Source: Flavobacteriaceae bacterium (GTDB lineage: Bacteria > Bacteroidota > Bacteroidia > Flavobacteriales > Flavobacteriaceae). From it: a DNA stretch of 64,000 bases. The notes below the pieces were generated by a model. It was not told the DNA's origin. It did no database searches and saw only the letters and a program-made list of their open reading frames with translations. The translations under genes and the position numbers were made by a program. Positions 5,232 to 10,323 of the stretch are shown here, piece after piece (within the stretch, counting starts at the first letter, position 1; every line of letters starts with the position of its first letter). The DNA lies in NCBI GenBank assembly GCA_013215095.1, contig JABSPM010000097.1:1-64000 (forward strand), written 5' to 3'.

Positions 5232-6776
5232 TTAAAATTTAAAGCTAAATCCGGAGTAAAGTCCCATAAAATAGGGCCTAAAATTACCAGATGTATCATT
5301 AAATGTATTTAATTGATATTTAAAGGCTGGCTCTAGATTTAAATTGAATTTTTGTGATAATTTAAAGTCTATTTCAAAACCTAAATTAGCACTGAAACTG
5401 GTGTTATTTATATTCGTGGCTTTTCCAATGTAGGTGCTTTGTCCATCTAATGTAGAGTAGATTTCATTTTTATTTAATAGTAAAGCACTAAACCCACCAA
5501 TAACACTAATATCAATTTTTCTTTCAATGAACTTATATTCCAATTCTAAAGGCATCTCAATAAAACCTAATTCTTGATCGATAGCACCTTGGATTCGGTT
5601 CGAAAGTACCTCAGGAATTTGCTGAAATGCAAAATCATTATTACTTATAAATGAAATGTCTTTGGCAGTATCAGAAAAAGCAATGTTTCTAAAGGTGTTT
5701 TCTGTGGTGGTTGAACTTGAAACATTGTTGTAAATAAAAACATCGTTTGTACTATAGCCAAGCTCAACTTTATTTATACCGGCCCTAATGCTTAATTTAT
5801 CATTTAAGACATAACTTCCTTTAATACCGTAGCTCATGTTAATTTTTCCAGATTTAGTATTGCTATTAAATTGGGAATGTATGGAGGAGCCTTCGCTTAA
5901 AGAATTAAAATAAACTGGGGCTATATTAGAATTGAGCGTCCAACGTGTTTCGGGCGCTGTATTTTCGTTTGCTCTTTCTTTATCCTCAGAGCTTTTTTCC
6001 AAAGCAGCAATTTCTTCTGTAATAGATAAAGTCGCATTAGGAGCTGTTGTAGTTGCTTCGGAATCTTTTTCTTTGGCCTTGTTTTCGGTTTTGTTTTGAG
6101 ATGCATTTAAAGTCTCAGCAACCATAGTGTTAGAAGCGTTAGGCGTTTTGTTTTTTAATAATTCTTTGTGATTTTTATTTAATAAAGACGCATTTTCTGT
6201 TTTAGGATTAGACGCAATATCGATTTTAGAAGGTATTGGGTTTTTGGGTGATAAGCTTGTGTTTTGTTTTAAGGCGTTACTTTTTTCAGCACTAGCATTT
6301 GTCTGTGTATTAGCACTATGCTTTTGAGGTACAGAAACCGTTGAAGAGGTGTTAATTCCTGTGTTGAAGAGAGGAGAATGCTGATTGTTGTCAGTTTTTC
6401 CAATATCGGTTGTATGGCTTACACTATTAGCCTGCTTACTCGTATTGTGTTGTTCCAATTTTGTGTGAGTACCTATAGTAATAGCATTGTTTTTGGGTGG
6501 TTCTTGAACTTCATTTTGAGAGGAAGTCTCTACATTAGTGTTTTTGTTAGGCAAAGCGTTTTCTGTGTTGAAAACACGATATCCAAGAGTAATAAATAGT
6601 AGCAAACTTGCAGCAATACCAGATCGTTTTAGCCATAGCGGTATGATCGTGTTTCGATCGTCCTCCTTGTGTTCTAATTCCTCTCGAATAGCATGCCATA
6701 CAGAGCTATTTGGCGTTGCTTCAAAGTTACGAAGCTTCTCCTGAAAGAGTCTATCTATATGTTTTTTATCGTTCAT
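5232..6776 (-). CDS. Trans-envelope protein: cytoplasmic head, inner-membrane segment, outer-membrane beta-barrel
   Basis: 514 residues with an unusual plan. Residues 1-50 are charged and cytoplasmic-looking (LFQEKLRNFEATPNSSVW). Residues about 51-68 are one membrane helix (SGIAASLLLFITLGYRVF). Residues 70-280 form an Asn/Ser/Thr/Lys-rich linker, and 285-514 look like an outer-membrane barrel, with alternating strands and the typical terminal Phe (GLYSGFSFKF). The ATG overlaps the stop of the ECF sigma gene by four bases, so the two are co-translated. I infer an anti-sigma-like head linked to an envelope sensor. Similar sigma-neighbour proteins occur in Flavobacteriaceae, but the anti-sigma role is not shown by a known motif. 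Confidence 0.7.
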   Translation of the reverse strand: MNDKKHIDRLFQEKLRNFEATPNSSVWHAIREELEHKEDDRNTIIPLWLKRSGIAASLLLFITLGYRVFNTENALPNKNTNVETSSQNEVQEPPKNNAITIGTHTKLEQHNTSKQANSVSHTTDIGKTDNNQHSPLFNTGINTSSTVSVPQKHSANTQTNASAEKSNALKQNTSLSPKNPIPSKIDIASNPKTENASLLNKNHKELLKNKTPNASNTMVAETLNASQNKTENKAKEKDSEATTTAPNATLSITEEIAALEKSSEDKERANENTAPETRWTLNSNIAPVYFNSLSEGSSIHSQFNSNTKSGKINMSYGIKGSYVLNDKLSIRAGINKVELGYSTNDVFIYNNVSSSTTTENTFRNIAFSDTAKDISFISNNDFAFQQIPEVLSNRIQGAIDQELGFIEMPLELEYKFIERKIDISVIGGFSALLLNKNEIYSTLDGQSTYIGKATNINNTSFSANLGFEIDFKLSQKFNLNLEPAFKYQLNTFNDTSGNFRPYFMGLYSGFSFKF

Positions 6777-7318
6777 AGGGTTTTCGAGTTTAAGCTCGAC
6801 TTGTATAATTCTACTTTATTTTTTAAAATCAATCTTGCTCTAGCAAGATTAGATTTTGACGTTCCTATTGTTATGTTAAGCATTTCGGCTATTTCTTTAT
6901 GCGCATAACCATCTAATGCATACAAATTGAATACTAATCGGTACCGGTCTGGTAGCTCTTGGATGCATTCTAGTAAGAAATCAATGCCAATGGTATCATT
7001 GTCAATTTCTATAGAGACATCTTCAATTTGTTCTTCGTTGATAATATCAAAAACACCTTTTGTTTTTCTATATCGCTGAAGCGCTGTATTGATTGCAATA
7101 CGTTTGAGCCAACCTTCCAAAGCTCCTTTGTTCTTATATTGATCAATTTTTTTAAATATAGTCAAAAAGGAATCTTGCAGATTGTCTTCAGCTTCTGCAT
7201 AATTCCTAGAATACTTTAAGCATATTGCAAATATTTTACTTGCATAGCGTTCATAGAGTTCGCTTTGTGCTTTGGTATCATTGTTTTTACACTTTTGTAT
7301 GAGTTGTTCTAAACTCAA
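6773..7318 (-). CDS. ECF-type RNA polymerase sigma factor
   Basis: 181 residues. Region 2 spans about residues 20-90 (LYERYASKIFAICLKYSRNYAEAEDNLQDSFL), and region 4 spans about 118-170, with the helix-turn-helix YAHKEIAEMLNITIGTSKSNLARAR. Regions 1 and 3 are absent, as in ECF factors. It is the middle gene of a three-gene unit, lipoprotein / sigma / barrel, with a 14-nt gap upstream and a 4-nt overlap downstream. The two-box promoter at 7777-7806 probably drives the unit and may be read by this sigma itself. Confidence 0.93.
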   Translation of the reverse strand: MSLEQLIQKCKNNDTKAQSELYERYASKIFAICLKYSRNYAEAEDNLQDSFLTIFKKIDQYKNKGALEGWLKRIAINTALQRYRKTKGVFDIINEEQIEDVSIEIDNDTIGIDFLLECIQELPDRYRLVFNLYALDGYAHKEIAEMLNITIGTSKSNLARARLILKNKVELYKSSLNSKTL

Positions 7319-7332
7319 ATTTTAGTTCAGTT

Positions 7333-7755
7333 TTAGTTGACTATTGGCACTTCATATATTAAATATTGTGCTTCTCCTTGTTCGTCTTCTCCTTGCCAAA
7401 TTTTAAAACTATAAGCTCCATTTTCCTTAGAGCAATGAAACTCAAATGAATTTGTCACAAGTGTTTCATCTAATGTTTGGCAATAATTGTTATCTAATTT
7501 TTTGTTTAGAACCGCTAGTGTTCTCTCATCCTCGTTGACGTTATAATACAAGTCATGAAATAAATGACAGCTCGTTGGCTGCATATAGCTATAAGCTATC
7601 GAATAAGTTTCATTAAAGAAAAAAGAATCGGGCAGTTCAATGCTTTCTATGGGGAGTAATTCAATGGTGTAATCATCCGACGTAGAATAATCATCTATAC
7701 TGCAAGAAGATACCGAGCTTAATACCAATACGATTATAAGTATAAATCTTTTCAT
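7333..7755 (-). CDS. Small lipoprotein, first gene of the ECF sigma operon
   Basis: 140 residues. A lipoprotein signal peptide ends at the lipobox SVSSC, with Cys at residue 18. The next residues, SIDDYS, are acidic, which in Bacteroidota can direct a lipoprotein to the cell surface. No domain is recognised. Four cysteines remain in the mature part. Its place ahead of the sigma factor, 14 nt apart, and the ECF-like promoter 22 nt before its ATG suggest it belongs to the regulon and may take part in sensing. That role is inferred from context. Confidence 0.75.
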   Translation of the reverse strand: MKRFILIIVLVLSSVSSCSIDDYSTSDDYTIELLPIESIELPDSFFFNETYSIAYSYMQPTSCHLFHDLYYNVNEDERTLAVLNKKLDNNYCQTLDETLVTNSFEFHCSKENGAYSFKIWQGEDEQGEAQYLIYEVPIVN

Positions 7756-7776: not shown

Positions 7777-7806
7777 AAGATGCAAAACCCTAATAAAGGT
7801 TGCGTT
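7777..7806 (-). promoter_or_regulatory. Two-box ECF-type promoter of the lipoprotein-sigma-barrel operon
   Basis: On the minus strand AACGCAACCTTT is followed by 11 bases and GCATCTT, ending 22 nt before the lipoprotein ATG. The same two boxes with the same 11-bp spacing recur at 8915-8944 on the other strand. Neither resembles TTTG/TAnnTTTG. The match in sequence and spacing is seen directly. Recognition by the operon's own ECF sigma is inferred. Confidence 0.65.
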
Positions 7807-7813
7807 AAAAAAA

Positions 7814-7840
7814 CAAAAAATCCCGAAACGTGTCGGGATT
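7814..7840 (-). terminator. recA terminator
   Basis: AATCCCGA (7819-7826) pairs with TCGGGATT (7833-7840) around a 6-base loop. On the minus strand a T-rich run follows, just past the recA stop at 7846. Confidence 0.85.
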
Positions 7841-7845
7841 GTTAT

Positions 7846-8847
7846 TTATTTTTCTGAAATTATCTTTTTAATTTTCTCTTCTAGTTCATCCATTAAATCC
7901 GGATTATCCTTAATTATGGTTTTGACAGCGTCTCTTCCTTGTCCTAGTTTGGTGGTGTCATAGCTAAACCACGAGCCACTTTTCTTTACAATCTCATTAT
8001 CTACGGCAACATCCAAAATTTCACCGACTTTAGAAATGCCTTCTCCATACATAATGTCGAATTCTGCTGTTTTAAACGGTGGGGATACTTTGTTTTTAAC
8101 CACTTTAACACGAGTTTTATTTCCCATGACATCGCCAGAACTGCTTTTAATTTGGGTTGAACGACGAATATCTAACCTTACGGAAGCATAAAATTTTAAT
8201 GCATTACCACCTGTTGTAGTTTCGGGATTGCCAAACATCACGCCAATTTTTTCACGTAGCTGATTAATAAAAATCATGGTACAGTTGGTTTTACTAATTG
8301 ATGCGGTTAATTTTCTTAAGGCTTGAGACATCAAACGTGCATGAAGTCCCATTTTAGAATCTCCCATTTCACCCTCAATTTCACTTTTTGGAGTTAATGC
8401 AGCAACAGAATCTACAACGATGATATCAATAGCGCCAGAACGTACTAAGTTGTCGGCAATTTCTAAGGCTTGCTCTCCATGATCGGGTTGAGAAATGATT
8501 AAATTATCTATATCAACACCTAATTTTTCGGCATAGAATCTATCAAAGGCATGTTCTGCATCTATAAAAGCGGCAATACCACCAGCTTTTTGTGCCTCTG
8601 CAATAGCATGTAGTGTTAATGTGGTTTTACCTGAAGACTCAGGGCCATAAATTTCTATGACTCTACCTCTTGGATAACCACCAACACCTAAGGCAATATC
8701 CAAACCAAGCGAACCCGAAGAAATCGCCTCAATATCTTGTACTGCGGCATCACTCATTTTCATTACGGTACCTTTGCCGTAAGCCTTATCTAACTTGTCT
8801 AAAGTTAATTTTAGCGCTTTTAATTTTGCGTCTTTTTCACTGCTCAT
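7846..8847 (-). CDS. recA: Recombinase RecA
   Basis: 333 residues. RecA forms the ATP-dependent filament for homologous recombination and SOS induction. Walker A G68-P-E-S-S-G-K-T75 is intact. The Walker B strand [19 protein letters not shown], loop L1 region [18 protein letters not shown] and L2 region [23 protein letters not shown] are all present. The C-terminal acidic tail is short, as usual in Bacteroidota. It is a single-gene unit with its own terminator. Confidence 0.98.
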
Positions 8848-8914: not shown

Positions 8915-8944
8915 AACGCAACCTTTTTATACTTTTTGCATCTT
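8915..8944 (+). promoter_or_regulatory. Second two-box ECF-type promoter, orphan, reading rightward
   Basis: AACGCAACCTTT, 11 bases, then GCATCTT: the same boxes and spacing as at 7777-7806. It points away from recA into 8950-9217, where no gene of normal size exists before a strong terminator. The coincidence of promoter and terminator marks a short transcription unit. Confidence 0.6.
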
Positions 8945-8954
8945 CATAAAACAA

Positions 8955-9032
8955 ATGGGAAAATGGGATAAGCTAAGAAAAAGAGATTATGGCGTAGGGC
9001 TATGTGTTCAAAAGTTTTCCGACCCGAACTAA
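8955..9032 (+). CDS. Possible 25-residue micropeptide
   Basis: ATG at 8955 opens a frame starting MGKWDKLRKRDYG and ending FSDPN. It begins 10 nt after the GCATCTT box, so it would be nearly leaderless. It is basic in the first half. No family is recognised, and a frame this short is expected by chance. It is listed because it is the first frame of a bounded transcript. Confidence 0.2.
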   Translation: MGKWDKLRKRDYGVGLCVQKFSDPN

Positions 9033-9036
9033 GTCT

Positions 9037-9123
9037 ATGAAATTTTTTAAAAAAATAGTATTTAACAATATTAATGGAATTGCAGTTTCTATTAGCGGAA
9101 ATTGCAAGTCTGATGGTGGTTAG
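9037..9123 (+). CDS. Possible 28-residue micropeptide
   Basis: The frame starts MKFFKKIVFNNING and ends GNCKSDGG before TAG at 9121-9123. It has a basic start, a hydrophobic middle (GIAVSIS), one Cys and a terminal Gly-Gly. It lies four bases after the previous small frame, within the promoter-terminator unit. No homologue is recognised, and a chance frame is possible. Confidence 0.3.
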   Translation: MKFFKKIVFNNINGIAVSISGNCKSDGG

Positions 9124-9181
9124 CTCGTGAGTAATAATTTTGAAAACAAAAGAATTATTGTATAACGAGTTAGTCTAAGAA

Positions 9182-9217
9182 AAAGCGCTTTAATCCACTA
9201 TTAAAGTGCTTTTTTTT
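9182..9217 (+). terminator. Intrinsic terminator of the short transcript upstream of trhO
   Basis: AAAGCGCTTTAAT (9182-9194) pairs with ATTAAAGTGCTTT (9200-9212) with one G-T pair around a CCACT loop, followed by a T-run to 9217. Confidence 0.85.
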
Positions 9218-9250
9218 ACGTTGTAAATTAGCATTAACCCCTAAAAATAG

Positions 9251-9291: not shown

Positions 9292-10323
9292 ATGCAACTG
9301 TACAATAAATTAAGTGCTAAAGAAAGAGCAGAATTAATCGATAAAGCAGGAAAATATCGTTTAACACTTTCTTTTTATCAATATGCACATATTCAATCGC
9401 CTAAACAACTTCGAGATGAGCTTTTTGTGGTTTGGAATGGCCTAGATGTATTAGGGCGAATTTATATCGCACATGAGGGTATAAATGCCCAATTATCGCT
9501 TCCGGCAGAACGTTTTGAAGCTTTTAAAACGCATCTAGATGCTATCGATTTTTTAAATGGTATTCGTTTAAATATTGCGGTGGAGCAAGACAATAAATCC
9601 TTTTTAAAACTTAAAGTAAAAGTTAGAGAAAAGATTGTTGCAGATGGTTTAAATGATGATACCTTTGATGTTACAGATAAAGGGGTTCATCTTAATGCTA
9701 AAGATTTTAATACCTATATCGAAGATGAAAATACGGTTTTGGTAGATATGCGTAATCATTATGAAAGTGAGATTGGTCATTTTAAGAATGCCATAACTCC
9801 AGATGTTGATACATTTAGAGACTCTTTAGATATTATAGAAGAAAATCTTAAAGCACACAAAGAAGATAAAAACCTTGTGATGTATTGTACAGGTGGAATT
9901 CGTTGCGAAAAAGCTAGTGCGTATTTTAAGCATAAAGGGTTTAAAAACGTATTTCAATTAGAAGGCGGCATAATTGAGTACACAAGACAAATAAAAGAAG
10001 CGGATTTAGAGAATAAATTCTTGGGACAAAATTTTGTATTCGATCAGCGTAGGTCAGAACGTATTAGCGATGATGTTATAGCTAATTGTCATCAATGTGG
10101 TACTGCTTTTGATGTGCATACCAATTGTGCTAATGAGGCTTGTCATTTGTTGTTTATTCAGTGTGAGTCATGCAAAGCACGTATGGAAAATTGTTGTTCA
10201 GAAGCCTGTATGGAAATAAACAGGCTGCCTTACGAAGAACAAAAAGCACTTCGAAAGGGTAAAGGGAATAGCAATAAAATTTTCAAAAAAGGAAGATCAA
10301 CACATTTACGACAAAAGTTATAG
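9292..10323 (+). CDS. trhO: tRNA uridine(34) hydroxylase, rhodanese family
   Basis: 343 residues. TrhO (YceA) uses molecular oxygen to form 5-hydroxyuridine at tRNA position 34. The N-terminal acylphosphatase-like domain carries IAHEGINAQLSLP. The rhodanese domain (about 128-235) has the active loop Y198-C199-T-G-G-I-R-C205. The C-terminus contains a Cys cluster (CHQCGTAF, CESCKARMENCCSEAC) that probably binds metal. Length and domain order match the family. The gene is monocistronic. Confidence 0.93.
   Translation: MQLYNKLSAKERAELIDKAGKYRLTLSFYQYAHIQSPKQLRDELFVVWNGLDVLGRIYIAHEGINAQLSLPAERFEAFKTHLDAIDFLNGIRLNIAVEQDNKSFLKLKVKVREKIVADGLNDDTFDVTDKGVHLNAKDFNTYIEDENTVLVDMRNHYESEIGHFKNAITPDVDTFRDSLDIIEENLKAHKEDKNLVMYCTGGIRCEKASAYFKHKGFKNVFQLEGGIIEYTRQIKEADLENKFLGQNFVFDQRRSERISDDVIANCHQCGTAFDVHTNCANEACHLLFIQCESCKARMENCCSEACMEINRLPYEEQKALRKGKGNSNKIFKKGRSTHLRQKL

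Follow-up and report, generated by a model that had tools for sequence, protein, structure and literature searches.

A candidate micropeptide-encoding small RNA gene beside recA in Flavobacteriaceae, with a promoter matching that of the neighbouring ECF sigma factor operon

MicA, RybB and MicL are sigmaE-dependent small RNAs, and SgrS/SgrT and RNAIII are dual-function RNAs; to our knowledge, few bifunctional RNAs are known in the phylum Bacteroidota. Streptococcal SHP pheromones are short basic-hydrophobic peptides with a GG end. The Dma/Das systems of Bacteroides comprise dual membrane-spanning anti-sigma factors with ECF21 sigma factors, and in the accessible text of the respective study the Dma proteins are described as consisting of an N-terminal domain, a membrane helix, a long disordered tether, and an outer-membrane barrel (PMC13088901). 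For Bacteroides Dma2, the same text states that the operon-neighbour genes tested did not account for the phenotype (PMC13088901). In F. psychrophilum, the accessible part of a transcription start site study describes the RNA Rfp11 as conserved and strongly folded and lists an ECF-type SM6 promoter for it (PMC9723704).

Switches of the Dma type link the Bacteroidota outer membrane directly to transcription. The window (the whole analysed stretch of DNA, 64,000 nucleotides) likewise holds an ECF sigma factor beside an anti-sigma factor that, as modelled, follows the Dma plan, and the sigma gene is part of a three-gene operon including a protein of unknown function, as reported for Dma2 in the accessible text (PMC13088901). 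The unit at 8915-9218 is probably a small gene under this neighbouring sigma factor, yielding a structured, terminated RNA of about 270 nt and a 28-residue peptide with a presumed role in the envelope. Sequence support for this model comprises the promoter match, the location next to recA together with the sigma operon, selection at the codon level, a covarying hairpin, and the terminator. The locus is composed of the following features:

5232-6776, minus strand: Dma-like anti-sigma factor with outer-membrane barrel, as judged from a structural model
6773-7318, minus strand: ECF sigma factor, likely the activator (PF04542/PF08281, TIGR02937)
7333-7755, minus strand: lipoprotein of 140 aa, all-strand domain in the model, no Pfam family
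7777-7806, minus strand: matching promoter of the lipoprotein-sigma-anti-sigma operon, same boxes and spacing, upstream of the lipoprotein gene
7846-8847, minus strand: the gene that we take, from its sequence, to be recA, between the two promoters
8915-8944, plus strand: ECF-type promoter AACGCAACCTTT-N11-GCATCTT, boxes at 8915-8926 and 8938-8944, 11 bases apart
8951-9036, plus strand: predicted 5' leader, its start near 8951 deduced from the -10 box
9037-9123, plus strand: micropeptide gene MKFFKKIVFNNINGIAVSISGNCKSDGG, 28 aa plus stop, second of two short frames
9070-9117, plus strand: RNA hairpin inside the reading frame, from the fold and from covariation on 52 sequences
9118-9175, plus strand: RNA hairpin from the last Gly codon, containing the stop codon (GGTTAGCTCG .. 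CGAGTTAGTC), from the fold
9176-9218, plus strand: intrinsic terminator, one long 43-base hairpin with a U run at its end
9292-10323, plus strand: presumably trhO (yceA), the next gene downstream

The earlier note on this DNA had proposed an orphan ECF-type promoter matching that of the adjacent operon, followed by two tiny frames (8955-9032 and 9037-9123) and a strong terminator. Boxes, 11-bp spacing, match, both frames, and terminator were all confirmed; "orphan" is a misnomer, since two such promoters flank recA and this one matches that of the sigma operon. Throughout the genome of origin (3.07 Mb), the exact promoter pattern was found at two places, 8915-8944 and 7777-7806 (minus strand), and its reversed control at none. 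Allowing up to three mismatches added two weaker sites, versus one match of the control. Among 85 related regions, 20 of which had been retrieved by a promoter pattern, 84 had a distance of 15 bases from CGCAACC to CATC. In the leader, most relatives have TGGGAAA..TTGCTATGAAA in common; the window copy has GCTAAGAAA there. The terminator region (9178-9219) folds alone at -16.0 kcal/mol and is kept in relatives with changes on both sides of the stem; a simple consensus terminator scanner did not call the hairpin at 9176-9218. The predicted 270-nt transcript folds better than all of 200 shuffles (z = -4.74). On the other side of recA, an inverted repeat of eight pairs with T-rich tails on both sides (7819-7840) is likely a two-way terminator between recA and the lipoprotein operon.

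Relatives of the unit were collected by several routes. When 40 genomes, own genome included, were searched with a 331-base region, 15 had matches at E ≤ 0.001, of which several were weak; the strong ones adjoin recA and have the second frame in common, not the first. A degenerate N-C-K-x-D-G-G-stop pattern matched once each in 28 of 397 genomes of the same family, with 0 matches of the reversed pattern in these 397, and the promoter was located 121-343 bases upstream of the motif in all 28. Scanning the named GTDB collection yielded 88 matching stretches, of which 64 were confirmed as relatives; they come from Gelidibacter, Psychroserpens, Bizionia, Lacinutrix, Xanthomarina, Flavivirga and others, their recA is 86-92% identical to that of the window, and two Algicola MAGs group with Psychroserpens in the recA tree. 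The promoter is present in 64/64 of these loci and recA lies on the 5' side in 64/64, no more than 395 bases away in 63. The sigma operon follows beyond recA in 62 (the sequences of L072 and L082 end short) and is further away from recA in L107. Since trhO is adjacent in 59 of the 64 and not in L077, L083, L110, L111 and L112, the unit is tied to recA and the sigma operon. The promoter-terminator pair that the earlier note had placed between recA and trhO is conserved in relatives. In Tamlana nanhaiensis (L082), about 4.5 kb separate recA from the peptide unit, with promoter and trhO retained; in the recA-trhO interval of L166 (G223), a further small lipoprotein gene, preceded by a separate CGCAACCTTT..ACATCT promoter, lies between recA and the RNA unit.

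The encoded peptide, which the window has in common with many marine flavobacteria, mostly has 28-31 aa and the form M[KR]FFKK...[KR]xDGG, with a basic start, a moderately hydrophobic middle, and a polar tail ending in xDGG. The window frame is intact, keeping MKFFKK and ending in NCKSDGG; it is two codons shorter than the 30-codon majority and its GCTATGA motif is missing from the usual place. Because the sets of 28 and 64 loci were found via the NCKxDGG motif, conservation of that stretch is partly forced, and peptides found by promoter and position were fewer and variable there. Selection was assessed on the frames of 90 nt (63 of 77 distinct ones), for which pN/pS was 0.41 overall. In codons 2-21, a stretch not forced by the search, pN/pS was 0.64, and no stops occurred in these codons versus a mean of 6.9 after column shuffling. 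The value for codons 22-30 was 0.10 at a pS of 0.64; most members had been selected for the motif there, with synonymous choice left free. These values indicate purifying selection on the micropeptide codons across the family, part of which may serve the in-frame hairpin. Twenty stretches were retrieved by promoter alone, being picked among the matches listed because they had a divergent promoter pair and no strict motif match; eight hold a peptide of the same form, all eight outside the strict pattern; 20 of 60 recA loci carry the peptide by an automatic rule demanding a DGG end. Codon conservation, which the earlier note had left to be checked for either small frame, was borne out by pN/pS and stops for the second frame. 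The first frame (8955-9032) was rejected as the gene because it is not retained as a frame: a start is at its place in 60 of 85 regions (window included), with a median length of 10.5 codons and at least 20 codons in 10. In L096, L097, L106 and L082, GCTATGAAA just 5' of the peptide begins an upstream frame of 4 codons; its stop and the start of the peptide overlap as ATGA, which suggests translational coupling.

RNA-level constraint was evaluated on an alignment (A3) of 52 of the 65 peptide loci (64 named loci and the window). The in-frame hairpin was paired in 95.3% of cells and had 49 two-sided changes, compared with 8.7 ± 4.4 in shuffled alignments and at most 8 with the partner slid; one of five measures (further pair types) was not above shuffles, 59 of 500 being as high. 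Codon selection together with this covarying hairpin places the frame under both protein and RNA constraint. For the hairpin around the stop codon, the stem base was paired in 97.8% of cells with little variation there, and the covariation score was not above shuffles, giving no covariation support.

The peptide is shorter than the frames that are usually annotated. Pfam and NCBIfam gave no family for the window peptide and, for 28 members, nothing better than weak matches at E 0.076 or above. The peptide sequences lend weak support to membrane targeting: net charge of the first eight residues is +2 to +3, and the best 19-residue hydropathy is 0.84 for the window peptide, with a median of 1.21 and a maximum of 1.89 over 72 peptides. 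The most diverged peptides retain the basic start and [KR]xDGG, not the cysteine. The NC-KxD tail resembles a lipobox; a lipoprotein or Sec-exported peptide was rejected as the lipobox cysteine is not invariant, being replaced by Phe in L161 and L164 and absent from NGSSRVDGG in L224.

Within the sigma operon, the anti-sigma factor was modelled with AlphaFold2 from 27 sequences (mean pLDDT 61.6, about 60 in the N-terminal part). The model has N-terminal helices (4-39), a helix at 47-69, low pLDDT at 70-250, and a barrel at 279-513 that matches OmpA/OmpW-type barrels. Reading helix 47-69 as a membrane helix and 70-250 as a 180-residue disordered tether, the modelled protein is built like the Bacteroides Dma proteins. 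We read the lipoprotein domain, as modelled, as an Ig-like sandwich; a PDB sequence search up to E 1 returned nothing for it, and the best fold match (E 0.0033) had a low TM-score. A link of this lipoprotein to NigD was dismissed, as 28 members gave a lipid attachment site (3 members) and scattered weak matches (best E 0.0062). The promoter before the lipoprotein gene has GCATCT in 54 of 63 related loci and is present in 63/63 by a looser rule.

Sigma factor and second promoter go together: with a lenient promoter rule, the 29 recA loci of a sample taken evenly from the family (the window genome counted in; 2 of 31 genomes had no recA match) comprised 17 with both, five with the sigma only, one with the promoter only (L172), and six with neither (Fisher p 0.0055). 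Twenty further promoter copies in 10 relatives were picked, among the matches listed, for lying elsewhere in the genome. Sixteen of them lie 16-53 bases before exported proteins, 12 of these being lipoproteins by eye; of the other four, two have a membrane protein 300-380 bases downstream and two are followed by no clear gene. As 16 of 20 start exported proteins, the promoter belongs to an envelope regulon.

Some loci have the unit without the peptide: where the sigma is adjacent and the second promoter present, which holds for 42 of the surveyed loci, the peptide is absent from 21 (23 by the automatic DGG-end rule). L218, L219 and L225, missed by that rule, were scored as peptide-bearing by eye (frames ending in LEGG, IDGG and LDDG; GTG start in L219), L216 passed it with a frame of just 21 aa, L183 was let through by the promoter rule despite a poor site, and L199, a second recA record of one genome, was removed before counting. 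The second batch of 30 genomes had been picked for carrying the promoter pattern, hence only the first batch (31 genomes) is unselected. By eye, most peptide-less copies still have a short terminated RNA. GCTATGA is present in 27 of the 34 distinct copies without the peptide and in 64 of the 88 with it, versus 47 of 2420 control segments, and [CT]TA[AG]CTC in 19 of 34, 45 of 88 and 133 of 2420, respectively, the significance of both enrichments being inflated by kinship. As the shared motif is kept in most peptide-less copies, a function of the RNA itself is favoured; half of the surveyed loci lacking the peptide, the unit is regarded as a small ECF-controlled RNA gene that appears peptide-coding in the window and is possibly bifunctional.

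If the RNA were mainly regulatory or bifunctional, a sigma-dependent sRNA would pair with mRNAs via the conserved motifs, and the peptide would be an addition found in some members of the family; we consider this competing account less likely than not to be right. Both motifs recur in distant genera: in L188, L191, L226 and L229 the same position is taken by another RNA, which has CTAACTC close to its 5' end and TGCTATGAA later, so that the motif order is swapped, around other hairpins. Against this reading, the consensus fold of 13 peptide-less RNAs was the terminator alone, and Rfam gave no match near the gathering score (best 28.4 bits versus a cut-off of 100, over the terminator region). 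Moreover, a target screen that looked for GAGTTAGTC, which is complementary to the second motif, no more than 24 bases from ATG gave 36 matches, some nested, in eight peptide-less genomes, versus 20 in the reversed control; among 30 loci inspected, no gene recurred between genera, the sole repeat being one place in two genomes of one genus. The farther-reaching version, in which a family-wide bifunctional flavobacterial RNA is the main trans target of a Dma-type switch, carries two mRNA-regulating motifs and, in part of the family, encodes a peptide of 28-31 aa that acts back through its xDGG tail on the barrel anti-sigma factor or another envelope partner, is speculative and rather unlikely as a whole.

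The remaining explanations were given little weight. A decayed gene with promoter and terminator as remnants, the main alternative of the earlier note, applies to some relatives, with clear decay in G008 (L004/L178), G235 (L165), G379 (L169) and L119 (counted in the 64, with a broken frame), and presence or absence of the peptide changes at least 11 times on a quick recA tree of 87 rows, three changes being forced by starred branches; the peptide has thus been lost or gained repeatedly. For the window copy itself decay is improbable, given the intact frame and the selection measurable across the family. It is similarly improbable that the peptide is a type I toxin damaging membranes from a structured mRNA: size, N-terminal charge and mRNA structure would fit, but there is no strongly hydrophobic helix and the constrained part is the polar tail. 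Slightly less credit still is given to a long 5' leader, with the promoter serving the sulfurtransferase gene trhO, which is next in most loci; a strong terminator separates the two, and five loci keep the unit without adjacent trhO. The F. psychrophilum map does have an ECF-type SM6 promoter upstream of yceA, but its -10 box is given as CGT in the accessible text, unlike GCATCT (PMC9723704).

Under the preferred reading of a small sigma-controlled gene for RNA and peptide, the regulatory or micropeptide element suspected beforehand is supported by the conserved promoter, terminator, and second frame. By analogy with the Dma work, the barrel of the Dma-like anti-sigma factor would sense a change in the envelope, upon which sigma would be released. 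Freed sigma would then transcribe its own operon (lipoprotein, sigma, anti-sigma) and the micropeptide gene, steps that are backed by the promoter sequences. The peptide may go to or across the inner membrane; acting by way of its conserved tail, it would most likely be a small effector in the envelope or a partner in feedback. Pairing may be a further role of the RNA, as peptide-less relatives keep parts of it. With this locus come a new family of micropeptides and a candidate bifunctional RNA, and since the sigma beside the Dma-like protein has one exact promoter copy besides that of its own operon, the output of the switch is testable by few clean mutants.

Compared with known systems, the unit resembles the sigmaE-dependent sRNAs in being, at sequence level, a short terminated RNA and a prime target of an envelope ECF sigma factor, and differs in encoding a conserved peptide and in that no target mRNA was found in the screen of eight genomes. 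With SgrS/SgrT and RNAIII it shares a small structured RNA with an embedded short frame; it differs in its ECF control and its peptide, and its pairing role is putative. Like the SHP pheromones, the peptide is short and basic-hydrophobic with GG at the end, whereas its tail is polar. In contrast to the window, no micropeptide or small RNA target is mentioned for Dma/Das in the accessible text (PMC13088901). Rfp11, compared by description only, is likewise a folded RNA with an ECF-type promoter, and the SM6 start before yceA or Rfp11 could be the counterpart of the window unit in F. psychrophilum, as far as the accessible text goes (PMC9723704). A literature search over titles and beginnings of abstracts, with supplements outside its range, returned no paper describing this gene. 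The micropeptide is what is new here, within a known kind of gene, the envelope-sigma-controlled small RNA gene.
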